Origin: a virus
Direction: 5' to 3' (one strand)
IMG/VR virus record: IMGVR_UViG_3300010354_000296
Span: 1 to 34,111 of that record
DNA: 34,111 nucleotides
Below the pieces are notes generated by a model, which saw only the letters and a program-made list of their open reading frames with translations, did no database searches and was not told where the DNA came from. The translations under genes were made by a program, and so were the position numbers. Positions 1,687-24,341 of this stretch are shown here, one piece after another. How positions within the stretch are numbered: position 1 is the stretch's first letter; the number at the start of each line of letters is the position of its first letter.

Positions 1687-2406
1687 ATGCCTTTACCTAA
1701 GATTTCTACACCAACATATGAGTTGGAATTGCCATCAACTGGAGAAACTATTCAATATAGGCCATTTTTAGTTAGAGAAGAAAAACTTCTTGTTCTTGCA
1801 CTGGAATCAGAGAACATGAAGGAAATTACAACCGCAATTAAAACTGTTATTAAGAGTTGTATTTTATCAAAAGGAATTAAGATTGAAAGCCTTCCTACTT
1901 TTGATATTGAATATTTGTTTCTGAATATTCGTGGCAAGTCTGTAGGAGAAGAGATTGAAGTTAATGTAATTTGCCCAGATGATGAAGACATCACGGTTCC
2001 TGTTACAATTTCTGTAGATGAAATTCAAGTAGTCAAGAACGAAAAGCATACAAATAAGATCAAAGTTGATGATTCTATCATGATGGAAATGAAGTATCCA
2101 TCATTGGATCAATTTATTAAATCAAACTTTGATTTTTCTGGTGCTAATTTAATGGATCAATCCTTCGATCTGGTTGCTTCATGTGTCGATAAAATTTATT
2201 CTGGAGATGAAGTTTGGACATCCGCAGATGTAACTAAAAAGGAAATTATGGAATTTCTTGAGCAGATGAACTCATCTCAGTTCAAGCAAATTGAAACATT
2301 CTTCGAGACCATGCCTAAGTTATCTCATACGGTCAAAGTTAAGAATCCAAAGAGTGGTGTTGAAAGCGAAGTAGTTTTGGAGGGTCTTTCCAATTTTTTC
2401 GCATAG
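1687..2406 (+). CDS. 26: Baseplate hub assembly protein gp26 / tail chaperone
   Basis: This 239-aa protein matches the T4 gp26 family of baseplate hub assembly proteins. The N-terminal 'LPSTGETIQYRPFLVREEKLL' type segment (about 15-35), the 'NIRGKSVGEEIEVNVICP' strand region (about 80-97) and the closing 'VKVKNPKSG...VVLEGLSNFF' unit (about 217-238) are the family's hallmarks. gp26 is needed to form the hub but is not a main structural part, and it sits where G-type tail chaperones sit, just before the tape measure. Its last codons contain the slippery heptamer T TTT TTC (2394-2400), followed by a stem-loop. Ribosomes slipping by -1 would bypass the stop at 2404 and continue into the next ORF, giving a product of about 298 aa. 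Confidence 0.85.
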   Translation: MPLPKISTPTYELELPSTGETIQYRPFLVREEKLLVLALESENMKEITTAIKTVIKSCILSKGIKIESLPTFDIEYLFLNIRGKSVGEEIEVNVICPDDEDITVPVTISVDEIQVVKNEKHTNKIKVDDSIMMEMKYPSLDQFIKSNFDFSGANLMDQSFDLVASCVDKIYSGDEVWTSADVTKKEIMEFLEQMNSSQFKQIETFFETMPKLSHTVKVKNPKSGVESEVVLEGLSNFFA

Positions 2407-2427
2407 GCCTGGTCCACATGGACCTGG
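2394..2427 (+). promoter_or_regulatory. Putative -1 programmed ribosomal frameshift signal
   Basis: The gp26 codons AAT TTT TTC give the heptamer T TTT TTC (2394-2400), a standard X XXY YYZ slippery site. After a 7-nt spacer there is a stem-loop: CC T GGTCC (2408-2415) pairs with GGACC T GG (2420-2427), 7 base pairs with one T-T mismatch and loop ACAT. A -1 slip continues as CGC ATA GGC CTG GTC CAC ATG and enters the 2418 ORF without a stop. The gp26 stop (2404-2406) lies just after the slip site. The signal is seen directly; that it works is inference. Confidence 0.75.
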
Positions 2428-2582
2428 AATCTTATTATAAATTGAACTTTTCCTTAATTCAGTATCATAAATACTCATTAACGGAGATTGAAAACATGAT
2501 GCCTTGGGAACGAGACATTTATGTTGCTCTATTACAACAGCATGTAGAAGAAGAAAAACTCAAGCAGCAACAAAATGCGTGA
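2418..2582 (+). CDS. Short downstream tail-chaperone ORF (gp51-position), probably made by frameshift
   Basis: A 54-codon ORF is open from the -1 frame of gp26 and ends inside the tape-measure start (ATGCGTGA, 8-nt overlap). Its sequence includes the helix-rich 'SLTEIENMMPWERDIYVALL' core (residues 21-40) and an acidic, glutamine-rich tail. That pattern resembles the T part of G/GT-type tail assembly chaperones, and it occupies the place of T4 gene 51, the hub assembly catalyst, though T4 gp51 is much longer. No Shine-Dalgarno sequence precedes its ATG, and the ATG is partly buried in the stem-loop (2408-2427). This favours expression as a gp26 fusion (about 238 + 6 + 54 residues) over independent initiation. 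A late-type motif CATAAATA (2466-2473) lies within it and could serve the next gene. Confidence 0.7.
   Translation: MDLESYYKLNFSLIQYHKYSLTEIENMMPWERDIYVALLQQHVEEEKLKQQQNA
2466..2473 (+). promoter_or_regulatory. Late promoter-like motif CATAAATA
   Basis: CATAAATA lies inside the short chaperone ORF, about 100 nt before the tape-measure ATG at 2575. It matches the core of the late motif seen before other structural genes here, but the longer distance and coding location weaken the call. Confidence 0.3.
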
Positions 2583-4467
2583 CCAATTAGTCAACGAAAC
2601 TATTGATGCAAGGATTCTAAGACTTGTTGGTCTTGAGGATGTTTTTGATCTGGATTATGAAACTTATCTAGTTCTTTTAAAAGAGGCGCAAGTAAAAGGA
2701 AAGAATACAATTCCTGTAGAAGAACAAGCACTTCTTGCAAATGAAAGAAAAAGAATAAGAGGAAAAGTTGGTCGATTCAAAGTTAAATCAAAGACGATCA
2801 GAGCTGAAAATATAACATCGGTTAGGACGATTGGGCGAAGGTTGCTGCCAGCAGCAAAAGGTGTTGGAACAGAACCACCAATCGTAAAATCTTTATTGGC
2901 AATAAGCAAAACTGTTGAATCAATTTCTTTAAGTTTAACTGAACAAAGTAAAGAAGAAAATAAAGAAGCGGAAGAGAACCGAAAGGAAGAAGAAAATAAA
3001 AAACGAGCAAAAAGGGAAGAAACTTTAGAGTCAAGTGCAAAAAAAGTTATGGCAGCAGCCAAAAAACTTTTTGCACCAGTAAAAGGAATATTTGATTCAA
3101 TTTTTAATTATTTTTATTATACTTTATTGGGAAAAGGAGTTACAACAGCACTCGAATGGTTTGCAAATCCTGCAAATGCTGAAAAAGTAAATGCACTTGG
3201 TAGATTTGTAAAGGATTGGTGGCCAACATTGCTTGGTGCTGCTGCTTTATTTTTAACTCCACTTGGGGGATTTATAGGAACTACTCTTGGTTTAATCCGC
3301 AATCTTGCTTTTAGATTCCCACTTGTAGCAGCAGCTGCAGGAGCTTCAATTGCTGGTGAAATTGGTGATAAAAAACTCCGAGAAATGACTGGTACTGGTT
3401 ATAGTACGGCAATGATCGGATCTACTCCAACACCATTTGGGGCACCGAAAGTAAAAACAAAACCCAAAACTGAAAAACAAATTAAAGAGAATCAAGAAGC
3501 TCCATATGGAAGAAATCCAGATGGTACTCCTAAATTATTTCCAAGTCTTTTTACATCTGGTGGATTAATTAATTCAAATACTGGGGTAAAAATTTCTGGA
3601 GCAGGTCAAGATACGCAACTGACTGCATTACAACCCGGAGAAATTGTAATGAATCGCTCTACTGTAAGAGCAGTCGGGGCAAATAATCTACTTGGATTAA
3701 ACAGAATGTTTGGTGGTCCAAGTGCAAACCGTCCAAAATTTGCAGGTAACATTCAATTTGCACAAAATGGTGGATTTATTGGAAGATTAAGGGGAATGTT
3801 TGGTGGCAATAAACAACCTCCAGCGAATAATATAAGATCAACAGATGTTTTCAAGATTCGTGGTGGACAAATGGTTGACCCACTGACGGGAATGTCACCA
3901 ACAGAATTTAAAGAAAATACTCAAAGAAACTATTATGAAAAACCAAATGCTTGGAAAAGATTTTTAAATTGGTACAATAAAGGAAGAAATGTAAGAATTC
4001 CGAATGAAAGTAGTGCTGGTTGGAGAAGAATTATAAAAGATGATATGCAACAAAGAGGAAAATTTAAAACATCTGCGGGTCAATTAAAAGGATGGAATCC
4101 TTGGTGGTCGTTTACTACTGGACTTGGGACGGGCCCTACACCATTAGGAAGACAAATTGTTGAAAGATCTCCAAAATTGGGTGTTAGATTCGCAACTATG
4201 CCAGTTATTGGAGACATGCTCAATGCAAGACCAGCTGGCGGAGATCTTGAGAGTGCGATACGAAGAGGAGATTATAAAGGTCCAATGCCCGGACCACCAA
4301 TGTCTAGAAGTAGATCTAGCATAATGACTCTTCCTCCAGTTGTACAGTCGGCAGCCACAGCAAATTCAGTAGCAAAATCGAATGGTTCTGAAGTCCCATC
4401 ATTCTCTGCGATTGCTCCTGGAAATAGAAGATCTGATAATGCTCAAATCTACGGATTAATCCCATAA
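2575..4467 (+). CDS. Tape-measure-type tail protein (first of two)
   Basis: This 630-aa protein follows the gp26/chaperone pair immediately, the usual place of a tail tape measure. Residues about 1-70 are charged and helical. A Glu/Lys-rich coiled coil follows (about 124-160), then a hydrophobic region with WWPTLLGAAALFLTPLGG and FPLVAAAAGASIAGEIG segments (about 214-260) like the membrane-active parts of tape measures. A later repeat-like segment contains GLINSNTGVKISGAG and LQPGEIVMNRSTVRAVGANN (about 328-368), similar to 'PGE-V' elements in other tape-measure proteins. At about 1.5 angstrom per helical residue the length would span roughly 95 nm, near myovirus tail length. T4 gp29 is of similar size. 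Homology to gp29 cannot be shown by eye; other possibility: a hub-internal structural protein. Confidence 0.55.
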   Translation: MRDQLVNETIDARILRLVGLEDVFDLDYETYLVLLKEAQVKGKNTIPVEEQALLANERKRIRGKVGRFKVKSKTIRAENITSVRTIGRRLLPAAKGVGTEPPIVKSLLAISKTVESISLSLTEQSKEENKEAEENRKEEENKKRAKREETLESSAKKVMAAAKKLFAPVKGIFDSIFNYFYYTLLGKGVTTALEWFANPANAEKVNALGRFVKDWWPTLLGAAALFLTPLGGFIGTTLGLIRNLAFRFPLVAAAAGASIAGEIGDKKLREMTGTGYSTAMIGSTPTPFGAPKVKTKPKTEKQIKENQEAPYGRNPDGTPKLFPSLFTSGGLINSNTGVKISGAGQDTQLTALQPGEIVMNRSTVRAVGANNLLGLNRMFGGPSANRPKFAGNIQFAQNGGFIGRLRGMFGGNKQPPANNIRSTDVFKIRGGQMVDPLTGMSPTEFKENTQRNYYEKPNAWKRFLNWYNKGRNVRIPNESSAGWRRIIKDDMQQRGKFKTSAGQLKGWNPWWSFTTGLGTGPTPLGRQIVERSPKLGVRFATMPVIGDMLNARPAGGDLESAIRRGDYKGPMPGPPMSRSRSSIMTLPPVVQSAATANSVAKSNGSEVPSFSAIAPGNRRSDNAQIYGLIP

Positions 4468-4471
4468 GATC

Positions 4472-6883
4472 ATGGCAGTTAACGCTCAGAAGTTATTACC
4501 ACCAGCAAGATTGTCAGCAGGCGAAAGAATGGCGGCTGCTTATGATAAAAAGATTGATGACTTGCTGAATCTTAAGATTAAAAAGAAACTCATTAATGTA
4601 GAGAAGATTGTAAACAAAACAAAAAAGGTTAAAGAGACAACACGAAAGAAAAAGAAAACAAGCAAAGAAAATGAAAAGCGACAATTAAAAGAAGAAAAAC
4701 TTGAAAAACAAAAACAACCAGAAACTAAAGTATTGGGGTTACCAAATCTACCAAAAACTGGATTTCTTGATAGTGTTCAAAACTTTTTAGGATATACTTT
4801 TCTTGGATATTTGTTTACGAACTATAGCGATAATCTTTCTCCATTACAAAAAGTTGTATCTTTATTGCCTGCAGCAATGGATACATTCAGTAAGGTTCTT
4901 GTTGGAACTTTAGATTTTTCTTCTGCACTAATTGCTGGTGGTTATAAGGCAAAGGATGAATTATCAAAACAAGTAAAATCTTTAGGCGGCGAAAACGCAC
5001 AGAAAACTTTTGATCAATTTACGACTGATTTTAGAGACATGATCAATTCAATCATGACTTTAGGATTGGTTCAACCCAAACAACCAGTTCCACAAAAAAC
5101 AAATGGTGGTTTGGTTACAAAAATGGCTGTTGGTGGAAATGTTGAAAGGTTGGGAAAACCTGTTGGAGGACCAGTAACCAGAACAATTGAAAAAGTCTCT
5201 ACAACTCGTCAACCCATAGTTTTTAAGCAAAAAACAGATCCAGGAAGAGATATTGGAGGACCTAAAAAAATTGAAAGAATATTCCCCAAATCAATAAATC
5301 CACAAAAACCTGGACCACTTAACAGTTTAATAGCAACATCTTCAGAATTGAAAAAAGTTCCATTAATTGGATCTTTGATGTCCGCTGCTGTTGATATCGC
5401 AATGGGTCAAAAACCCGATAGGAAAATTTATAAAACTTTTGGGCAATCAATCGCATATTTGATGGGCCCATCGATTGAAAACCAATCTAATATTGCAATG
5501 GGTAATTTGACAAGCACTATTGCAAAAATGGCTACAGGTGGTTTTATACCAGTAAATAGACAAATTACTACAAATATGAGTTCTACGGAACGATTTGTGA
5601 CACAGTTAGCTAATATTTTTCAAATTGCTATTGAAACAAGATTATCTAGAATATTTTCACAAATTTTAAAAACGAAAAATGCATCAGAAACTATTGAAGA
5701 TATAGAAAAAGCTGGAGAATATGGGGATATTGAATATGGACCATTGCCTCTTGACATGACGCAAAAGCAAGCATTTGCTACCATCTACGAACTTGCTAAG
5801 AAAAATGGTGCTGCGATGCCGGAACTGGTTGCTGGTATGGCAATGCACGAATCTGGTTATTTAACAAGTGCGTTAGCACGAGAAGCAAACAACCCATTTG
5901 GACAAACTGGAAAGGGAACTAAAGGAAGTATAACTTATAAAGATAGACAATGGGCAGCATATAACAGTTTGGATGATGCCGTTAAAGAGCATATTAGAAA
6001 TTGGAATAATGATTCTAAATTTGGAAAGGGCGCTGGAACATATCCAAGTGCAGTTGAGGGTTTAAAGGCAATACTTCCAACATATGCTCCAACGAGTGAT
6101 GGCAACAATCATTCAAATTATATTAGAAGTGTATCCAGCATTCTTTCTACGATGGGATTTAATCCTCAGAAAAAAAATGCTAAGGTAGATTTAAGTAAAT
6201 CGCAATTAATACAACAAAGAAGACCAACTTCAGCGGGAAAAATTCCTGGTTCAAAAGCAATAGATCCTAGAGTTTTGGATCAAAATGAAACTGTACCAGT
6301 AGAAGGTAGATTTAGATTGAGGGCAGATGCGGCAAGAGCATATCTTGATATGAAAAGAGCAGCAGCTACAGAGGGTGTAAGTATAACATTAACATCTGCA
6401 TGGAGATCTTATCAAGAGCAAAAATATCTTTATGATAATCAAAACAAACCCGGATTTAATCCAGCAGCTGCACCAGGCACATCGAAACACGAATTTGGTC
6501 TCGCAATTGATGTTGCAAGTGGTATACCTTGGGTTACAAGACACGGGTCTCGTTTTGGATGGATTGCAACGGTTCCTGGAGAACCATGGCATTTTGAATA
6601 TAATGGAAGTTATACTCCACGAGCTTCAAATCAAAAAACTCAAAGAGCATCTTCAGCAACAACTGCTCCCTCTGCTAATATTGCATCATCAACTCCAAGA
6701 GTTTCAAATACAGCGAACCAAATAGCAATGAATCCATCATATAATGAACCAGAAGTACTAGTGGTTCTTCAGGAAAAAATTGTTTTGAAAGAAATTGAAA
6801 GCCCAAATATGGGAGCATATCCAGGTTTATCTAACATTGCTTTTCCTGGGGTAAATAGTACCATACCAACATTAGTCGGATGA
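4472..6883 (+). CDS. Tail protein with glucosaminidase and M15 peptidase domains
   Basis: This 803-aa protein combines a tape-measure-like N-terminus with two wall-degrading domains. Residues about 25-90 form a very Lys-rich coiled coil, and 95-165 contain hydrophobic helices. Near 425-570 there is a glucosaminidase/lysozyme-type (GH73-like) domain: AGMAMHESGY carries the likely catalytic Glu460, followed by NNPFGQTGKG and the later YPSAVEGLKAILPTY region. Near 600-715 there is a VanY/M15 D,D- or L,D-carboxypeptidase domain: SKHEFGLAIDV (zinc ligands His673 and Asp680) and EPWHFEY (Glu704, His707). Together these can cut both glycan and peptide parts of peptidoglycan, the job done in T4 by the gp5 lysozyme domain. 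It lies between the first tape-measure-like protein and the gp27-like hub, which suggests it is carried in or at the tip of the tail. Confidence 0.8.
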   Translation: MAVNAQKLLPPARLSAGERMAAAYDKKIDDLLNLKIKKKLINVEKIVNKTKKVKETTRKKKKTSKENEKRQLKEEKLEKQKQPETKVLGLPNLPKTGFLDSVQNFLGYTFLGYLFTNYSDNLSPLQKVVSLLPAAMDTFSKVLVGTLDFSSALIAGGYKAKDELSKQVKSLGGENAQKTFDQFTTDFRDMINSIMTLGLVQPKQPVPQKTNGGLVTKMAVGGNVERLGKPVGGPVTRTIEKVSTTRQPIVFKQKTDPGRDIGGPKKIERIFPKSINPQKPGPLNSLIATSSELKKVPLIGSLMSAAVDIAMGQKPDRKIYKTFGQSIAYLMGPSIENQSNIAMGNLTSTIAKMATGGFIPVNRQITTNMSSTERFVTQLANIFQIAIETRLSRIFSQILKTKNASETIEDIEKAGEYGDIEYGPLPLDMTQKQAFATIYELAKKNGAAMPELVAGMAMHESGYLTSALAREANNPFGQTGKGTKGSITYKDRQWAAYNSLDDAVKEHIRNWNNDSKFGKGAGTYPSAVEGLKAILPTYAPTSDGNNHSNYIRSVSSILSTMGFNPQKKNAKVDLSKSQLIQQRRPTSAGKIPGSKAIDPRVLDQNETVPVEGRFRLRADAARAYLDMKRAAATEGVSITLTSAWRSYQEQKYLYDNQNKPGFNPAAAPGTSKHEFGLAIDVASGIPWVTRHGSRFGWIATVPGEPWHFEYNGSYTPRASNQKTQRASSATTAPSANIASSTPRVSNTANQIAMNPSYNEPEVLVVLQEKIVLKEIESPNMGAYPGLSNIAFPGVNSTIPTLVG

Positions 6884-13169: not shown

Positions 13170-13176
13170 GTTTCTT

Positions 13177-13249
13177 GCCCGTGTAGCCCAGCGGAAGAGG
13201 CAAACGACTTAAAATCGTTCAAGCGACAGTTCGAATCTGTCCACGGGTA
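13177..13249 (+). tRNA. tRNA-Leu(UAA)
   Basis: A 73-nt cloverleaf. Acceptor GCCCGTG pairs with CACGGGT (one G-T pair), with discriminator A. The D-arm is GCC/GGC, anticodon arm AACGA/TCGTT with loop CTTAAAA, anticodon TAA at 13210-13212. The T-arm is GACAG-TTCGAAT-CTGTC. CCA is not encoded. The variable region is only CAAGC (5 nt), which is odd because leucine tRNAs are normally class II with a long variable arm. The anticodon reads UUA, a codon favoured in this AT-rich phage. Confidence 0.85.
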
Positions 13250-13261
13250 TGAGGTTTATCC

Positions 13262-13563: not shown

Positions 13564-13635
13564 GCCCTTGTAGCTCAGTGGTAGAGCAGCGGTTTTGTAA
13601 ACCGCCGGTCGTCTGTTCAAATCAGATCGGGGGCT
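13564..13635 (+). tRNA. tRNA-Thr(UGU)
   Basis: A 72-nt cloverleaf. Acceptor GCCCTTG pairs with CGGGGGC (two G-T pairs), with discriminator T. The D-arm is GCTC/GAGC, anticodon stem GCGGT/ACCGC with loop TTTGTAA, anticodon TGT at 13596-13598. The T-arm is GTCTG-TTCAAAT-CAGAT. CCA is not encoded. It decodes ACA, a threonine codon common in the fibre genes downstream. The start is 4 nt after the previous stop, so it is probably processed from the same transcript. Confidence 0.9.
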
Positions 13636-13653
13636 CTGAGTTTATTAACTCCA

Positions 13654-14691: not shown

Positions 14692-17600
14692 ATGGGTCTC
14701 TCCAGATTAGATAATTTTCTGAAATCAACTCGTGGAACGATCATTTACGTTGATCCTAACGCAATCGATTCCACAGACTCGATTGAAAACCAAGGCAATT
14801 CTTTGGGTCGCCCGTTCAAAACAATTCAAAGGGCTCTAATCGAAGCATCTAGATTTTCATATCAAAGAGGACTTGATAACGATAGATTTAATAAAACAAC
14901 AATTGTACTTTATCCTGGAGATCACCTTGTAGATAACCGCCCAGGATGGATTCCTGATGGAACTGCTAATTACAGATTAAGGAGTGGTGCAACTTCATCA
15001 GACTTTGGTGAGTTTTCAAGCGTTACGGATTTTGACTTAACAAGTGCAAATAATTCGCTTTATAAGTTAAACAGTATTTACGGTGGTGTGATTGTTCCAA
15101 GAGGAACCTCCATCGTTGGTATGGATCTTCGTAAGACAAAGATTCGTCCACTTTATGTGCCAAATCCAGAAAATGATCAGATTGAAAGATCTGCAGTCTT
15201 TAGAATTACTGGTGCTTGCTATTTTTGGCAATTTACTATTTTGGATTCAGATCCAAATGGAGTATGTTATAAAGATTATACGTCTAACTTATTTGTTCCC
15301 AATTTTTCTCACCATAAACTCACAGCATTTGAATATGCTGATGGTGTCAATGATGTAAAGATTGCAGATGATTTTCAAACATTTGAAACTGCAAGAACTG
15401 ATCTTGATATCTACTATGAGAAAATTGGTATTGCATATGGAAATAGCAGTGGTAGACCAATCATCCCAGACTATCCAAGTGATGAGGATATTCAACCAGT
15501 TATTGATGAATATCGTATCGTAGGATCTCGTGGCGCAGCTGTAGGAATCAGCAGTATTAAGTCTGGTGATGGACTTTCAGGAAATACTACAATTACTGTT
15601 ACAACGACCAGTGCTTTCCCACAACTTTCTGTAGATTCTCCTATCCAGATCAGTGGTGTAAATGCTCTTGGATATAATGGTCAGTATGTTGTATCTTCTG
15701 TTGCGAGTTCAACTCAGTTTACATATCAAGTTCAGAACATTCCAACAAATCTTTTACCAACTGTCAATGGTGCAAATGTAAGTCTTGCTGTTGATACTGT
15801 CACATCTGCATCACCATACATCTTTAACATTTCACTGCGTTCTGTATTTGGAATGTGTGGAATGTTGGCTGATGGTGCAAAGGCTGATGGATTTAAATCC
15901 ATGGTTGTTGCACAATATACCGGTATCGGATTACAAAAAGATGATAAGGCATTTGTAAAGTATGATACAAATTCTGGTTCATATCAAGACTTCACATCGG
16001 TTTCAAATCTCCATAGCGATTCGTTAGCGAGATATAAACCATCATACGAGAGTTATCATATCCGCGCAATTAATAATTCATATATTCAAATCGTTTCAGT
16101 TTTTGCAATCGGATATGCAAATCACTTCCAAGTAGAAAGTGGTGGTGATTTTTCAGTTAATAACTCAAACTCAAACTTCGGTGCAAAAGCTTTCCAAGCG
16201 ATGGGATTCCGAAGAGATGCTTTTACAAAAGACGATCTTGGTTATATTACTCACATTGTTACTCCAAAAGAAAGAGACGTTAATCAAGTTTCAGTAGGTT
16301 TCTTACCACTGGATTATGCAAAAACAGTTTCTGTTGGTGATACGACAAAGTTATATCTTTATGGATATAATGATCAAGAAATTGCTCCACCTGAAGTTGT
16401 CGAAGGATTTAGAATTGGAGCACAGAATAATGATGTATTGTACTTGGACATTGCTCAGTCTGGAGTTACTACAACCTATTCGGCACGAGTTGTTATGCCG
16501 AATACTCAATTATCGGCAGAGAAAAAATACTATGTTGGCAGAAATGCTGGGATCAATAGCATCACATCAAGTCTGATTACACTCACATCAAGACATGATC
16601 TGATTAATGGCGAAACTATTCGTGTTATTAGTGAAACTGGTCAACTTCCAGATGGTTTAGAATCGGATACTGTATATTATACAATTACCGACACGGTTGC
16701 TGTTGGTATTGGTAGCAATCAAATTAAGGTTGCAAAAACATTAAATGATGCAGTTAATAATAATCCTATTACAATCAACTCCAGAGGTGGAGCATTAAAG
16801 ATTGTAAGTAGAGTATCTGATAAAGTTTCTGGATACATTGGACATCCAATCGGTTTTGATACAAGCAACTCACAATGGTATATTAAGGTTGCAATTGCTG
16901 CATCCGAAAATAGCATCTATCCAGCACTGCAATCATCAGTTCTTTATGATTCGACTGCAAGAACATATTTCAAGAGAACTCCAGACACAAGAGACTCTTC
17001 TGACACTATCTACAAAGTTCGCTATGTAATTCCTAAAGATGCAGTCAATCTTGGTGCAGCTCCAATCGAAGGTTATATTCTCCAAGAATCTAATAATATC
17101 ATTGGTGCAGGAACAACTGAAATTCAAAAGTATTTTTCTCCAACAGCCTCAACATTATCAAACTCGACGGAATTAAGAAACTTTAGATTTATTTCTGGAG
17201 CACAATGGTCTGGTGGTGTTGTTAGCATCGATACAGAACTTCCTCACGATTTAAGAGTTGGAGCACAAGTAGAAGTTTTAAATGTTGTTTCAACTGCAAA
17301 TACAACAGGAATTGCAAGCACAGCATTTAATGGAACTTTTACTGTTACTGGTATTACCAGTGTAAGACAGTTCACATATTCACTGACAAACAATCCTGGA
17401 ACATTCACTGGCGTAACTACAAATAGAACAACAAGCCTTCCATACTTTAAGAAAAAACAATTAGCAACGACATATCAGGTTTATAAATCCGAAGAAATTC
17501 AAAAGTATGTACAGAATATTCAAGATGGTGTTTATTATCTGACTTTAATTAACTACGGTAACGCTCCATCGACAGATCCATTTACACATTTAAGATTTGG

Positions 17601-20600
17601 ACAACCAATTGATAAGTTATATCCACAAACCAATAGAGATAGTGTAGTATCAGATGCTGCTTCAGCAAATACTTTTGCAAACTCTTTCGTAATTGGTCAA
17701 GTTGATATTGATGATCCTCAAAATAGCATCACAAAACAAACTGAAGAAAAGCGTCAATATGATCTTGGTGGCGTAATTCAAATCAATAATATTAGATCTG
17801 CAACGGGAACTGCACATACAATCTATACACCACATGGTCATAGATTATCTGGTATTACTTCTGTAAGTATTACAAATGCTGGTGCTGGATATACAAGTGG
17901 TACATTCTATGCAGTACCATTAGGATTATCAACGACTGGTAGAGCTGCAAATGCTCGTGTAACCGTAAGTGCCGCTGGTACTATCACCAATGTATTGATT
18001 ATGGATGGTGGTGGTGCATATAAAGTTGGTGATGTTGTCACTATTCTTTCTGGGATTGGAACTTATGCACCATACACACAAGCATCAGTAACCGTAACAA
18101 AGATTTATGATCATGTTGGAGAAAGTATTCGTGTATCTGGAGTAACTTCGGAAGGATATTCTGGTTACAATACTCTCTATAAGATTACTGGAATTAGTAC
18201 ATACAATCAAATTGATGTTCAGTCTTCAAGAGAAATTATTGGTATTGGTTCAGATCTTTCAGTTCAAGCTGCAAACGCTCAAGCAGTTCTGACTGGTAAG
18301 ACTCTTGGTATTTCAACTTTCACATATTATGCACAAACTGGTATCGGAACGCTTGCATTTACAAGTGCTCATGGATTAAGAAAGAACGGAAAAGTTAGAA
18401 TTAGTGGTGCAGATCAAGCACTGTTTAATAATGACTTTATCGTTACTGAAATTAATTCAAATACTTCAGTTTCAATTAATGTAGGTATTACAACATCTTC
18501 ACCTTCAACTGGTGGAAACATTACAGTTTATCTCCCATCATTAACTTCATATGGTGGCGATGTATTTGGTGAGAACTTTGTACATATTATTAATCCAAAA
18601 GAAAATGAAGCTTCTGCTGGTCGTCTCTTAACTCAGTATGCTGGTATCACTACAACTCTTGGAGGACAAATCTTATCGACAGATTCTGATTCAACTCCAG
18701 TTGTTATTAGTAATGCAGACATTCTTGGATTCAGAATTGGCGATTACTTCCAGATCGATGATGAAATCTTTAGAATTAAGGAAACAGTTCTTGGAAGTGC
18801 TCTCTTAGTTTATCGTGCATTGTTTGGAACTCCGAGACAAGATCATACTGCAGGAACTGCACTGAAGAGAATTAGAATCACTTCAGTTGAACTTCGCAGA
18901 AATTCAATCATTCGTGCATCAGCTCATACCTTTGAATACCTTGGATTTGGTCCAGGTAACTATTCAACTGCATTCCCTGATAGACAAGATCGTGTTCTTA
19001 CTGATAAAGAAATTGAATTAAGTCGTTCATCAAAACTTGATGGCGGCGCTGTTGTATACAGTGGAATGGATGACAGAGGAGAGTTTCGTAATGCAAAAGA
19101 GTATGAAATTCCTATTGAAACTGTAACTGGCGAACAACCAGATATATCTCCAAGTAAAAAAATTGAAACATTTGATAGTCCAGTTGTTCTGAATACAAAA
19201 CTGACATCAAATGATGAGATTGAAGCAAAGTCCCTACTTATTGCTGGTGATGCAAATGTTGCTCGTAAGTTTACTGTTGGTATTGGAACAACTCCTGCAA
19301 CTGCTGGTACTTCTGGTGATGTTGTTTATAAAGCAAGACCTGCACATAATGAATATCTTGGATGGATCTATACTGTAGATAATCAGTGGGAACCTTTTGG
19401 ATTCATTGGAACTCTTCCAAATGGTCTTGTGTTTGGTGCCGCAAATCAAATTCTTTATAAGAGTCCATTAAATACAAACACTGGTAATGGAAACTTTTTA
19501 TTCCAAGATAATTCCACGTTAATCATTGGTGCAGCAACATCAACAGGATTTGATAGTCAAAAACTACAAGTTACTGGAAATGCATACATTTCAAATGGAC
19601 TTGGAATCGGAACCACAGGATCAAGATCTTCTCTGGATATTGTTGGTAATGCAAGAATTAGTGGAATCGTAACTGTTGGCGCATTAAGCATTGGTAGTGG
19701 TGGTGGAAGCAATCAACTAAACATTGGAATTACATCAATTTCTTCGGGTATTATTACTGCATCAACAGGTATTGTCACATACTATGGTGATGGCTCACAA
19801 CTGACGAATTTACCTGCAGGATCCCAGTGGTCAAATGTTGGTGCCGGTCTTGGAACTGGAATTTATAAAAATAATAATGTCGGAATTGGAACAACACTCA
19901 CCCCAGCAAGATTGAATGTTTCGACTGGCGTTTCAACAAGTGTAGATGGTGGACTTGCAAGATTCTTAGCACCAAATCTTGCAGTATCAAGTTCGGCTGG
20001 AATTGCGATTGGAAGAACATTTGGAACAGATAACTTCCAATCCATTCTTCTTACATATAACTATCAAGGATCTTCAGCAAGTAGTGGTTCTTACTTATCC
20101 ATTGCTCATGCTGGTCAAGGCAACACTCTTGTAGTTGCTGATAGCAATCGAGTTGGTATGGGAACAGCGACTCCAAGAGCTGCTGCAGATATCATTGGTA
20201 ACGCATTTGTCTCCAACAGTATTGGAGTCGGAACTGCAAATGCAACGTCCAATTTACATGTCATTGGTACATCAAATATCACCGGCAATACTACAATAGG
20301 TGGTACATTAAATGTTTCTGGTAATACCACTCTGAATGGTAACTTGACAGTCACTGGTAATTTTGCAGCAACTGGTTCAGTTTCCGATACGCTTTATGCT
20401 TTTGGTAATACTGGATCCGCTCCAGTAATCAATCTTGCAAATGGAACATTTGTAACTGCAACATTGAATGCAAACGCAACATTTGCTCCATTCACAAATA
20501 CTCCATCCACAACAACAACATTTACATTATTCTTGACTAATGATGCAACTCCAAGCAGAACAATCACTTGGCCTGCGAATGTTAATTGGCCAAATGCTAC

Positions 20601-20709
20601 TGTTCCAACCAGAACAACCACCGCAAACAAAACTGATGTTTACACATTCTTTACTAAAGATGGTGGAAGCAACTGGTATGGTATTCTTTCAATTTACAAC
20701 TATTCATAA
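14692..20709 (+). CDS. Giant tail-fibre-type structural protein (2005 aa)
   Basis: The N-terminus (about 15-55, GTIIYVDPNA...GRPFKTIQRALIEASRF) is the typical opening of a right-handed beta-helix, pectate-lyase-like virion protein; the helix seems to run to about residue 500. The middle contains several strand-rich units with an 'H-x-L-x-x-G-x-x-V/I' plus 'NG-F-V-x-x-I' pattern, such as LPHDLRVGAQVEV, SAHGLRKNGKVRISGA and the SRHDLINGETIRV unit. From about 1560 on, 'VGIGTT-P--L-V-G-A-I' repeats (for example NVGIGTTLTPARLNV) form a fibre shaft. Residues 1904-2005 are a tip module shared with the next two genes. It probably forms a long fibre or a peripheral baseplate spike used in host recognition. 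I cannot tell which T4 fibre it replaces. Confidence 0.75.
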   Translation: MGLSRLDNFLKSTRGTIIYVDPNAIDSTDSIENQGNSLGRPFKTIQRALIEASRFSYQRGLDNDRFNKTTIVLYPGDHLVDNRPGWIPDGTANYRLRSGATSSDFGEFSSVTDFDLTSANNSLYKLNSIYGGVIVPRGTSIVGMDLRKTKIRPLYVPNPENDQIERSAVFRITGACYFWQFTILDSDPNGVCYKDYTSNLFVPNFSHHKLTAFEYADGVNDVKIADDFQTFETARTDLDIYYEKIGIAYGNSSGRPIIPDYPSDEDIQPVIDEYRIVGSRGAAVGISSIKSGDGLSGNTTITVTTTSAFPQLSVDSPIQISGVNALGYNGQYVVSSVASSTQFTYQVQNIPTNLLPTVNGANVSLAVDTVTSASPYIFNISLRSVFGMCGMLADGAKADGFKSMVVAQYTGIGLQKDDKAFVKYDTNSGSYQDFTSVSNLHSDSLARYKPSYESYHIRAINNSYIQIVSVFAIGYANHFQVESGGDFSVNNSNSNFGAKAFQAMGFRRDAFTKDDLGYITHIVTPKERDVNQVSVGFLPLDYAKTVSVGDTTKLYLYGYNDQEIAPPEVVEGFRIGAQNNDVLYLDIAQSGVTTTYSARVVMPNTQLSAEKKYYVGRNAGINSITSSLITLTSRHDLINGETIRVISETGQLPDGLESDTVYYTITDTVAVGIGSNQIKVAKTLNDAVNNNPITINSRGGALKIVSRVSDKVSGYIGHPIGFDTSNSQWYIKVAIAASENSIYPALQSSVLYDSTARTYFKRTPDTRDSSDTIYKVRYVIPKDAVNLGAAPIEGYILQESNNIIGAGTTEIQKYFSPTASTLSNSTELRNFRFISGAQWSGGVVSIDTELPHDLRVGAQVEVLNVVSTANTTGIASTAFNGTFTVTGITSVRQFTYSLTNNPGTFTGVTTNRTTSLPYFKKKQLATTYQVYKSEEIQKYVQNIQDGVYYLTLINYGNAPSTDPFTHLRFGQPIDKLYPQTNRDSVVSDAASANTFANSFVIGQVDIDDPQNSITKQTEEKRQYDLGGVIQINNIRSATGTAHTIYTPHGHRLSGITSVSITNAGAGYTSGTFYAVPLGLSTTGRAANARVTVSAAGTITNVLIMDGGGAYKVGDVVTILSGIGTYAPYTQASVTVTKIYDHVGESIRVSGVTSEGYSGYNTLYKITGISTYNQIDVQSSREIIGIGSDLSVQAANAQAVLTGKTLGISTFTYYAQTGIGTLAFTSAHGLRKNGKVRISGADQALFNNDFIVTEINSNTSVSINVGITTSSPSTGGNITVYLPSLTSYGGDVFGENFVHIINPKENEASAGRLLTQYAGITTTLGGQILSTDSDSTPVVISNADILGFRIGDYFQIDDEIFRIKETVLGSALLVYRALFGTPRQDHTAGTALKRIRITSVELRRNSIIRASAHTFEYLGFGPGNYSTAFPDRQDRVLTDKEIELSRSSKLDGGAVVYSGMDDRGEFRNAKEYEIPIETVTGEQPDISPSKKIETFDSPVVLNTKLTSNDEIEAKSLLIAGDANVARKFTVGIGTTPATAGTSGDVVYKARPAHNEYLGWIYTVDNQWEPFGFIGTLPNGLVFGAANQILYKSPLNTNTGNGNFLFQDNSTLIIGAATSTGFDSQKLQVTGNAYISNGLGIGTTGSRSSLDIVGNARISGIVTVGALSIGSGGGSNQLNIGITSISSGIITASTGIVTYYGDGSQLTNLPAGSQWSNVGAGLGTGIYKNNNVGIGTTLTPARLNVSTGVSTSVDGGLARFLAPNLAVSSSAGIAIGRTFGTDNFQSILLTYNYQGSSASSGSYLSIAHAGQGNTLVVADSNRVGMGTATPRAAADIIGNAFVSNSIGVGTANATSNLHVIGTSNITGNTTIGGTLNVSGNTTLNGNLTVTGNFAATGSVSDTLYAFGNTGSAPVINLANGTFVTATLNANATFAPFTNTPSTTTTFTLFLTNDATPSRTITWPANVNWPNATVPTRTTTANKTDVYTFFTKDGGSNWYGILSIYNYS
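20401..20706 (+). repeat. Fibre tip module, copy 1
   Basis: Codons 1904-2005 of the 2005-aa fibre. Key residues: GNTG at the start, 'V-TATL-ANATF', 'NDAT-SRTITWPA', 'PTRTTTA-KTDVYTFF' and the ending SIYNYS. The same module closes the next two genes. Similarity is visible also in the DNA, for example around CCAACCAGAACAACCAC. Confidence 0.9.
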
Positions 20710-20747: not shown

Positions 20748-22892
20748 ATGGCTGGAATTACTAAAAACTTCATTGTTAAGAACGGTCTTGAAGTTAATGG
20801 TGGTCTATTCATAGTTAATACTGACAACAATAAAGTTGGCGTTGGAACAACCGTCTTAAACTATGACTTTAATGTTAAGGGCGGAATTGGCGTTACAAAC
20901 GCTGTAGTTACTGGTATCGCTACAGTTAATGAATTCCAATCAACATATTCCCAACTTGGAATTGCAACAGCATCAATTTATCGAGTAGGAACAACAACAG
21001 TATTTCAAACTTCTGGAGGACTTGTAAGTCTTTCTGGAATTCAAACTGTCGATTCAACTGCAAAAACAACACTTATAAGTCAATTACTAGGAAGTCAGGT
21101 TGACATCAATAATTTGTCTATAACTGGAGTTGCAACGTTCGCAAATCGTGCAGAAATTAGTGGTGGATTATATGTTGCAGGTCAAAGCGATTTTATTGGT
21201 GGAGTATACTCTGCTGGAATTTCAACGTTTGTCGGAATTGCAACACATCAAAATACACTTTTTGGAACACAGTTAAGTGTTTCTGGCGTTTCGACATTAT
21301 CATCTGCAATTGTAGGATCAGCAGTTACAGTTACTTCTGGAGGTATAGATGTGACTGGGGTTGTTACATCAACCTCAGCAAGAATTGGTTCTGCAGTCAC
21401 ATTGACTAATGGAGGAATTAATCTTTCCGGCATTGCAACAATATCTAATATCAATTCAACTCAAATAAATTCTACAAACATCAATGTAAGTGGAATTTCA
21501 ACTTCAGCATCATTAAATGTAACGGGAAGTTCCACATTATCATCTGCAGTTATTGGAACTGGTGTTACGATCAACTCAGGTGGAATTAATGTAACTGGTG
21601 TTACAACTTTTGCATCTCACGTTAAGATCTTAAGTGTAGATCAAGGTGGTGGACTTTTTGCTGGAGTTATTACTGCAACAAATGGTGGTCAACCAGTTGT
21701 TTATTTTGGTGATGGTTCAAACTTAACAGGTGTCAATGCAGCTCCAAATCTTGGTATTTCTACCGCTGGAGGATTCGTTGGATCTGGTGTTACTCTATTA
21801 AACTTCCGTGGATCTGGTGTTTCAACAGTATTCACTAACTTCACTGCAGGTATTGGTACAATCTTTATTGAAGGTGGAACAGTAACTCCTGGTGGATCAA
21901 ATACTCAAATTCAATTCAATAATGCTGGTGTTCTTGGAGGTTCTTCCAACTTTACATTTGATGGAACTGGTGTAACTATCGGAACAAGTAGATTTAATGC
22001 TTCGGGTATTAATGCTGGTATTATTACAGCGACAAGTTTTAGTGGATCTGGATCTGGAATCACTGGACTTACCAATAGTAATCTAAGTGGTTCTGCTGGT
22101 ATTACTACTGCCAATCTGGCACAGTCTACAATTTCGGGTATTTCTCTTGGTGGAACTTTAGGAACATTAACTCTTGCAACATCTGGAACAGGTTTATCTG
22201 GATCTGCATCCTATACTGGTGCCACAAGTCAAACATTTACTGTTACATCTAATGCTGCTTCAGCAAATACTGCTTCGGCTATAGTTGCTCGTGATGCTGG
22301 CGGTGGATTTGTTGCAGGAATTATTACTGCAGGAACATTCAGTGGAAATGTTGTTGGTAATATAAATTCGACTGGAATTTCAACTATATCATCTTTGATT
22401 GTTGGTTCTGCAACAACGATTACTGACAGTGGTGTAAATGCTGTTGGTGTAGTATCTGCGACCAGTTATACCACAAAAGGTTCTGGAAGTTATCAAATTG
22501 GTGGCACAGATGTTATTACATCTGGTAGAGAAATTCAGAAAGTTGTTATGAACAACTATTCCGAAAAATTAAATGCATTTGGAAATACTGGATCTGCACC
22601 AACAATTAATCTTGCAAATGGAACTTTTGTGACTGCTACATTAAGTGCTAATGCCACATTCGCATTTTCTCTTGGAACTGGAGTAACTTCTGATGCAATT
22701 CAATTCACATTGCACTTAACTAATGACGCAACTCCAGGTAGAACAATTACTTGGCCTGCTTCAGTTAAGTGGCCAAATGGTACAGTTCCAACCAGAACCA
22801 CCACAGCAAACAGAACTGATGTGTACAGTTTCTATACTCTTAATGGTGGCACAGATTGGTATGGAATATTGTCAATCTATAACTATTCTTAA
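20748..22892 (+). CDS. Tail-fibre-type structural protein (714 aa)
   Basis: The protein begins 'MAGITKNFIVKNGLEVNGGLF', the 'F-VKNGLxVN' start common in cyanophage fibre proteins. From about 70 to 560 it is built of short repeats of the form 'G-(I/V)-S-T-x-x-x-A-x-V-G-x-x-V-T-x-x-x-G-G-I-x-x-x-G-x-x-T', which are strand-turn units of a trimeric shaft. Residues 611-714 are the shared tip module ending SIYNYS. A strong GAGGGGAGAG site precedes the ATG. It lies between the giant fibre and the 465-aa fibre in one operon. It probably forms a second type of host-recognition fibre, or a segment that joins with the neighbours. Confidence 0.75.
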   Translation: MAGITKNFIVKNGLEVNGGLFIVNTDNNKVGVGTTVLNYDFNVKGGIGVTNAVVTGIATVNEFQSTYSQLGIATASIYRVGTTTVFQTSGGLVSLSGIQTVDSTAKTTLISQLLGSQVDINNLSITGVATFANRAEISGGLYVAGQSDFIGGVYSAGISTFVGIATHQNTLFGTQLSVSGVSTLSSAIVGSAVTVTSGGIDVTGVVTSTSARIGSAVTLTNGGINLSGIATISNINSTQINSTNINVSGISTSASLNVTGSSTLSSAVIGTGVTINSGGINVTGVTTFASHVKILSVDQGGGLFAGVITATNGGQPVVYFGDGSNLTGVNAAPNLGISTAGGFVGSGVTLLNFRGSGVSTVFTNFTAGIGTIFIEGGTVTPGGSNTQIQFNNAGVLGGSSNFTFDGTGVTIGTSRFNASGINAGIITATSFSGSGSGITGLTNSNLSGSAGITTANLAQSTISGISLGGTLGTLTLATSGTGLSGSASYTGATSQTFTVTSNAASANTASAIVARDAGGGFVAGIITAGTFSGNVVGNINSTGISTISSLIVGSATTITDSGVNAVGVVSATSYTTKGSGSYQIGGTDVITSGREIQKVVMNNYSEKLNAFGNTGSAPTINLANGTFVTATLSANATFAFSLGTGVTSDAIQFTLHLTNDATPGRTITWPASVKWPNGTVPTRTTTANRTDVYSFYTLNGGTDWYGILSIYNYS
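22578..22889 (+). repeat. Fibre tip module, copy 2
   Basis: Codons 611-714 of the 714-aa fibre. It matches copy 1 in GNTGSAP, INLANGTFVTATL, NDATPGRTITWPA, TVPTRTTTAN and the end YGILSIYNYS. The stretch between TATL and the NDAT motif is the most variable part. Confidence 0.9.
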
Positions 22893-22943: not shown

Positions 22944-24341
22944 ATGGCTATCAAACTTTCGGGCTCAAATATAATTGATGATAATAGACATATTGTTAGT
23001 GCTGGTGTTATAACTGCTACCAGGGCTGTAATCGGAACCGTTGGTGGTGTCGGTGTAGTAACCGTCACTTCGGGTGGTATTCATGCAGTTGGTCTTGCAA
23101 TCACTGCAGCATCATTCTCTGGTGATGGTTCTGGTTTAAGCAACACTGGTTCCACGTTAAGTGCTGCTTCTGGTTCACAGAGAGTCGTACTGACAAGTTT
23201 AACGTCAGGCACAATGACAGCATCATCTACAGATGCAGATCTGGCATTTGATGCAAACTCAAATACTTTAACTGTTGGTGGTGGTGTTGTTGTCGGTGCA
23301 GCTTTAACTGTTACCGGTGACTTAACAGTTAATGGAACTACAACAACTATTAACTCCACAACATTAAGTGTTGATGATAAAAATATCATACTTGCGGATG
23401 GATCTTCCACTGATACTGCAGCTGACGGTGGTGGTATCACACTGAAAGGAACAACTGACAAAACTTTGACGTGGGTAGATGCCACTGATGCATGGACTTC
23501 TTCAGAAGATTTTAACCTTGTTACTGGCAAGCAGTATGAAATCAATGGCACTGCAGTTCTCACATCATCACAAGTCCTTGGTAAAGCAGTTCCTACAGGA
23601 ACAATCGTTGGTACATCAGATACCCAAACATTAACCAACAAAACTTTAACATCGCCCACATTAACAACTCCAGTATTAGGTACACCTTCCTCGGGTACAT
23701 TAACAAATTGCACTGGATTGCCTATCACGGGTATTACTTCATCGACCACAGCTACTTTAGGAGTTGGTTTGATTGATTTGGGACACGCAAGTGATACCAC
23801 AATTACAAGATCTGCTGCTGGTACTGTTCAAATTGAAGGTGTTACAGTTGCAACAGCATCTAACACATTAACTTTAACTAATAAAACTTTAACGACACCA
23901 GTAATTTCTTCTATTTCTAATACTGGTACACTTACATTACCAACATCAACTGATACGCTGATTGGTCGTGCTACAACAGATACATTAACCAACAAAACTC
24001 TGACTGCATACGCAGAAACAGTTAATGCTCACGGCAACACTGGAACAGCAGCAACTTTAGCACTGTCAAGCGGAAACGTGATTACAGCAACTCTGACTGG
24101 TAACTGCACATTTACGTTCAGCACAACTGGCATTCCATCTGGTTCATATTCATTCACTCTGATTCTCGCTAATGATGCAACTGCAGGCAGAACAATCACC
24201 TGGCCTGCTTCGGTCAAGTGGCCAAATGCCACCGTTCCAACCAGAACAACCACTGCAAGCAGAACCGACGTTTATACCTTCTTTACCACTGATGGTGGTA
24301 CAAGTTGGCTTGGCAACCTTTCACTCTATAACTACTCATAA
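22944..24341 (+). CDS. Tail-fibre-type structural protein (465 aa)
   Basis: The N-terminal 30 residues (MAIKLSGSNIIDDNRHIVSAGVITATRAV) differ from the 714-aa fibre start but are of the same attachment style. Residues about 40-130 are Ser/Thr/Gly-rich strands. The 'LTVNGTTTTINSTTLSVDDKNIILADGS' unit (about 126-153) is a well-known fibre element in marine phages. A 'TLTNKTLTSPTLTTPVLGTPSSGTLTNCTGLP' unit (about 228-262) is another, and the TNKTLT motif recurs at about 312 and 350. Residues 363-465 are the shared tip module ending SLYNYS. It is the last of three fibre genes that share their tip. Confidence 0.75.
   Translation: MAIKLSGSNIIDDNRHIVSAGVITATRAVIGTVGGVGVVTVTSGGIHAVGLAITAASFSGDGSGLSNTGSTLSAASGSQRVVLTSLTSGTMTASSTDADLAFDANSNTLTVGGGVVVGAALTVTGDLTVNGTTTTINSTTLSVDDKNIILADGSSTDTAADGGGITLKGTTDKTLTWVDATDAWTSSEDFNLVTGKQYEINGTAVLTSSQVLGKAVPTGTIVGTSDTQTLTNKTLTSPTLTTPVLGTPSSGTLTNCTGLPITGITSSTTATLGVGLIDLGHASDTTITRSAAGTVQIEGVTVATASNTLTLTNKTLTTPVISSISNTGTLTLPTSTDTLIGRATTDTLTNKTLTAYAETVNAHGNTGTAATLALSSGNVITATLTGNCTFTFSTTGIPSGSYSFTLILANDATAGRTITWPASVKWPNATVPTRTTTASRTDVYTFFTTDGGTSWLGNLSLYNYS
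24030..24338 (+). repeat. Fibre tip module, copy 3
   Basis: Codons 363-465 of the 465-aa fibre. It keeps GNTG, 'VITATLTGN-TF', NDATAGRTITWPASVKWPN, VPTRTTTASRTDVYTFF and the end LSLYNYS. It is the most diverged copy at its N-terminal edge (HGNTGTAATLALSSG). Confidence 0.85.

Follow-up and report, generated by a model that had tools for sequence, protein, structure and literature searches.

The window analysed here, a single stretch of viral DNA of 34,111 nucleotides, carries a gp26 gene at 1687–2406 and, directly downstream, an open reading frame for which a gene caller would take the ATG at 2418–2420 as the start of gp51 (the features of this locus given below lie on the plus strand). The question raised by this locus is whether these are two separate genes or, as a preliminary description of the sequence had proposed, one coding unit in which a -1 frameshift joins gp26 to the downstream frame in the layout of lambda G/GT. 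The gp26 product (239 amino acids) matches Pfam family PF12322 (T4_baseplate; E 1e-74) and PHROG 150 (E 6e-80), and would be the short form, TAC-N, of a tail assembly chaperone.

Read directly from the sequence in the frame of ORF 1687–2406, positions 2392–2406 are AAT TTT TTC GCA TAG; the slippery heptamer T TTT TTC (2394–2400), kept in relatives, is therefore in phase, and one sense codon (GCA) separates it from the zero-frame stop. A 7-nt spacer (2401–2407), which includes that stop (TAG, 2404–2406), leads to a 7-bp stem-loop at 2408–2427 with the stem CC.GGUCC/GGACC.GG and the loop ACAU; RNA folding returned the same hairpin, which is the putative stimulator of frameshifting. The slipped frame reads FF-RIGLVHMDLESYY... 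and ends with the TGA at 2580–2582, such that the -1 extension (2400–2582) would add 60 residues forming a gp51-like C-terminal domain (TAC-C) to 238 residues of gp26, giving a fusion of 298 amino acids. No Shine-Dalgarno-like 4-mer was found ahead of the ATG at 2418, two bases of which lie in the hairpin loop and one in the stem. On all of these points, that is the gp26 terminus, the spacer and stem-loop, the open -1 frame with a fusion of about 298 residues and the downstream ORF with no ribosome site and an ATG partly within the stem, the preliminary description was accurate; it had also placed the end of the fusion exactly at the tape-measure start, which is incorrect, as the fusion end overlaps the ATG of the next ORF (2575) by 8 nt.

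Taken alone, the 7-mer is no rarity in the AT-rich sequence of the window (17 copies against 21 expected), and the case thus rests on phase, position and conservation. Of the 10,409 codon positions in the genes of the window, 4 have an in-phase T6; among the gene ends of the window, the combination of an in-phase slippery heptamer with a long open -1 frame is unique to gp26.

Conservation was assessed in 416 gp26 loci gathered by protein similarity, a comparison that the preliminary description had named as able to refute the proposal. It did not do so: the in-phase heptamer, the -1 offset of the second frame and a downstream RNA structure are all retained in relatives. An in-phase T TTT TTN is present in 412 of the 416 loci, which excludes chance. 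All of 80 IMG/VR contigs, together with S-PM2 (whose gp26 is 46% identical to that of the window) and P-SSM2, have TTTTTTC followed by one codon and then the stop; the gp51 domain lies in the -1 frame in every one of these that reaches far enough for a match. The same layout was found in various Kyanoviridae and also, beyond that family, in Cronobacter phage LPCS28, Aeromonas phage PX29 and Vibrio phage nt-1; the Sinorhizobium phages phiM7 and phiM9 have T TTT TTT and T TTT TTG respectively. Among phages kept in the laboratory, Syn9 shares the layout with S-PM2 and P-SSM2, and the predicted junction of the latter two reads FF-RIS. When gp26 of Aeromonas phage PX29 was used as the query against viral contigs, only its own record matched. 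Among the relatives compared, the predicted frameshift layout thus hardly varies.

Codon-level analyses used a non-redundant set of 182 sequences (< 90% amino acid identity) drawn from the 412, from which the four exceptions are thus absent. In this set the first heptamer codon is TTT in 182/182 and the second is TTC in 173/182, as against a TTT:TTC usage of 69:31 elsewhere in the gp26 gene (TTC being only 31% of Phe codons). The codon preceding the heptamer Phe codons ends in T in 182/182, across nine different amino acids, and in a scan of codon conservation along the fusion F237 and F238 were among the highest-scoring positions. The distance from the heptamer to the zero-frame stop is 0, 1, 2, 3 or 8 codons while the heptamer position is constant; as the stop moves and the heptamer stays, conservation of the C-terminus does not explain the heptamer.

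The four exceptions comprise three phages (Ackermannviridae or relatives) with shorter T-rich sites, and Stenotrophomonas phage IME-SM1. In the former (the Vibrio and Salmonella phages L095, L096 and L103, which are unclassified or belong to the Ackermannviridae), the gp26 homologues end CTTTTTC, AATTTTC and CTTTTC, and the -1 frame is open for approximately 55 codons; these are probably variant slip sites like the GTTTTT reported for Pakpunavirus relatives. The slip site of the IME-SM1 record (L091:3241) is a run of five T, compared with six in the standard phase in the near-identical Mendera (L422:742), and gp26 of the IME-SM1 record is read through past the usual stop; the five-T site is probably a homopolymer error in that record. 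A further variant, T TTT TTT, occupies the slip site in L345–L347, L369, L371–L373, L398, L410–L412 and L418, several of these relatives having the stop directly after the heptamer; such natural variants could show how far the final base of the heptamer is important.

The downstream structure was compared with 100 shuffles per sequence that kept the -1 frame protein. The hairpin of the window gave a z of -2.97 by this measure. For the 182 non-redundant relatives, a 45-nt stretch starting 4 nt past the heptamer had a mean folding energy of -8.87 versus -4.37 kcal/mol in the shuffles (mean z -2.0), and no more than 5 of 100 shuffles were equally stable in 55% of sequences; the excess of structure falls to 0 by 34 nt downstream of the heptamer. 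The first paired base in relatives is mostly 4–10 nt past the heptamer. Clades differ in the stem found at this same place (7 bp in the window, a 13-bp perfect repeat in S-PM2 and approximately 11 bp in P-SSM2), and in some relatives the predicted stem is weak or absent. Among close relatives of the window, compensatory changes amounted to 20 double-change cells versus 11.3 in shuffles, with 0 of 500 shuffles as high, and slid controls gave fewer such cells than the actual stem position; this covariation is moderate, and relatedness among the sequences can inflate the count.

The 54-residue, ATG-started part of the -1 ORF matches PHROG 634 (E 3e-26), a family known as gp51 or baseplate hub assembly catalyst, and also matches PHROG 150 at its C-terminal end (E 3e-6), from which it follows that some PHROG 150 proteins hold both parts in one chain. 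We weighed whether this domain could be made as a separate gp51, with ribosomes reinitiating, or initiating internally, at an ATG close to where gp26 ends (2418 in the window). Public records do give gp51 as its own gene: roughly two dozen annotated cyanophage and T4-like records contained no joined or slipped gene at the locus and gave either two genes or missed the second, which is not annotated at the locus in the records of S-CAM4 and LPCS28. The fourth codon past the junction, 2 nt after the usual stop, is moreover an ATG in 85/182 relatives, where reinitiation could add some free C domain. That same codon is Leu in 93/182, however, and 65/182 (36%) have no ATG at all in the -1 frame ahead of a conserved YY motif, so that separate initiation cannot make the second domain in these. 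A Shine-Dalgarno-like 4-mer accompanies the first ATG in 15/181 sequences compared with 79/182 for gp26 itself, and in those relatives whose stop comes 8 codons past the heptamer, -1 frame homology starts before the stop. In the window and its relatives alike, the open -1 frame thus encodes a conserved domain without a conserved start of its own, and separate initiation would leave the conservation of the heptamer without explanation; we regard it as very unlikely, and the ATG at 2418 is judged not to be a real start.

Long T or A runs can provoke slippage of RNA polymerase, and the run of six or seven T at this site raises the prospect that a mixed mRNA population, and not the ribosome, gives rise to the longer product. 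Six T are short for slippage of the bacterial enzyme, and slippage of this kind would require neither the codon phase kept in 412/416 loci nor a hairpin 4–10 nt downstream; we therefore consider it very unlikely. The notion that the T run and the -1 ORF reflect chance or a sequencing artefact of the contig draws on the error-prone nature of homopolymers, of which IME-SM1 and Mendera may be an example, but is refuted by conservation, the layout being shared by many phage isolates and by hundreds of separately assembled sequences, and we attach practically no weight to it. On sequence evidence it is very likely that a -1 programmed frameshift of the lambda G/GT type makes both TAC-N (gp26) and TAC-NC (gp26-51) in this T4-like cyanophage, as the preliminary description had argued; this reading is supported by the conserved, in-phase slip site, by the -1 offset of the second frame and by the RNA structure downstream.

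What the analysis shows is the sequence layout and its conservation, the excess of downstream structure, the chaperone-like predicted fold of gp26 and the natural fusion in T4 gp51; ribosomal slippage at the site, how often it happens and a chaperone function of the products are inferred. Under programmed frameshifting, most ribosomes would finish gp26 and stop at 2404 to give the short form, and a minority, aided by the hairpin 7 nt downstream, would shift back by one base at U UUU UUC, bypass the stop and append the 60-residue gp51-like domain to give the 298-residue long form. If lambda gpG and gpGT are a guide, the N domain would coat the tape measure protein while tube subunits would be recruited by the C domain, with the ratio of short to long form presumably set by the rate of slippage.

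An AlphaFold2 model of gp26 (pLDDT 87) is consistent with such a role. Over residues 1–96 the top structural matches by VIA-align were 3fgx (Z 7.8), 2ob9 (Z 7.8) and 3klu (Z 7.4), with the next falling to Z 4.9 and 3.7. These three best matches are the HK97 tail assembly chaperone, YqbN (3klu) and RBSTP2171, and we take YqbN and RBSTP2171 to be chaperone relatives. The HK97 protein (gp13; 2ob9) matched at Z 7.8 over 84 residues, which is under 8, and a Z near 8 can reflect a common arrangement. Foldseek alone gave no significant match of the model to the PDB, and the gp26 sequence, searched against those of solved structures, returned nothing significant. The chaperone-like predicted fold lends some support to a mechanism like that of lambda G/GT.

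Chaperone genes of the lambda G/GT type lie between a tail tube gene and a tape measure gene. In the window, a tail-tube-like protein (gp54/tube-initiator-like) is encoded upstream of the chaperone at 904–1653 (Pfam PF23849, Phage_TTP_2, E 8e-12; PHROG 45, tail tube, E 2e-38). The next ORF downstream (2575–4467; 630 amino acids) is a candidate tape measure protein by position and a weak PHROG tape-measure match (E 0.085), and its equivalent in Sinorhizobium phage phiM7 weakly matches tape-measure PHROGs (E 2e-5). It was also considered as a homologue of T4 gp29, to which sequence comparison gave no tie. Elsewhere in the window, 4472–6883 encodes an 803-residue tail-region protein in which a glucosaminidase domain is combined with a VanY-type carboxypeptidase domain, both of them cell-wall-cutting. 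Three large fibre-like proteins encoded one after another (14692–20709, 20748–22892 and 22944–24341) have a closely similar C-terminal segment (TITWPA..VPTRTT...DVY.F...W.G.LS.YNYS), which suggests duplication, and genes for tRNA-Leu(taa) (13176–13250) and tRNA-Thr(tgt) (13564–13636) lie between structural genes.

In T4 itself, genes 26 and 51 had been described as separate. They are indeed two genes, but gp51 is not the second domain alone, since it also has a gp26-like N domain: it matches PF12322 (E 4e-52), its residues 147–246 match PHROG 634 (E 1e-23), and its alignment to the fused profile spans both domains (E 1e-9 at Z = 10,000, the best E among 1000 shuffles being 0.21). The match of T4 gp26 is confined to the N domain. 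The C domain encoded in the window is homologous to the C-terminus of T4 gp51, PHROG 634 matching both and profile alignments agreeing; the gp26 and gp51 proteins of the window are accordingly homologous to T4 gp26 (N only) and gp51 (N plus C). By these alignments T4 gp51 corresponds to the predicted fusion, encoded naturally in a single gene, and T4 thus carries the long and short forms as two separate, divergently oriented genes with no need of a frameshift, whereas relatives of the window phage most likely make both forms from one locus. Across cyanophages and the rhizobial, Vibrio, Aeromonas, Cronobacter and Stenotrophomonas relatives, we slightly favour the view that the U UUU UUC frameshift, with a hairpin conserved in position and changing fast, is ancestral at the T4-like gp26/gp51 locus, and that the T4 genes are later duplicates, one of them a permanent fusion. 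If so, the turnover of the hairpin would form a natural series for the evolution of a stimulator around a fixed slip site.

A frameshifted chaperone is not new in kind, having already been proposed for T4-like phages. Vladimirov, Gautam and Davidson (Virology, 2022) reportedly identified these chaperone genes in T4-like phages, and frameshifting is said there to be conserved in several T4-like groups, the T4 group using the separate genes 26 and 51. Its chaperones reportedly belong to the same 26/51 gene family and follow the same short and long chaperone logic as those of the window. The hairpin and stop-position analyses presented here may be additional to it. The literature searched contained no cyanophage-specific report of the frameshift, and no ribosome-profiling study of cyanophage infection was found in it.

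As in lambda G/GT, the locus follows a tube-type gene, the slip site lies near the end of the short form and the -1 extension would add a second domain. The lambda slippery heptamer is G GGA AAG; the window differs in its heptamer (T TTT TTC) and its larger N protein (239 amino acids), and its family in having a stable hairpin downstream in most members. Family searches detected no sequence homology to lambda G/GT, the roles of which in tail assembly have been described; an older review held the G-T frameshift to be conserved except in T4 (PMC5009743). A further known case is the chaperone of Pakpunavirus/Vandenendeviridae, another phage family, in which, as in the window, a -1 frameshift occurs at a T-rich site ending TAC-N and the downstream ORF belongs to the long form, although the motif is GTTTTT as opposed to TTTTTTC (PMC12846349). 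That source also cites poly-T slippery sequences as reported for T4-like TAC-N genes (PMC12846349).

Correcting the annotation of this locus would give the right set of tail assembly proteins for very abundant marine viruses, and the relatives, in their hundreds, supply naturally varied frameshift signals that keep a fixed slip site and differ in the stimulator.
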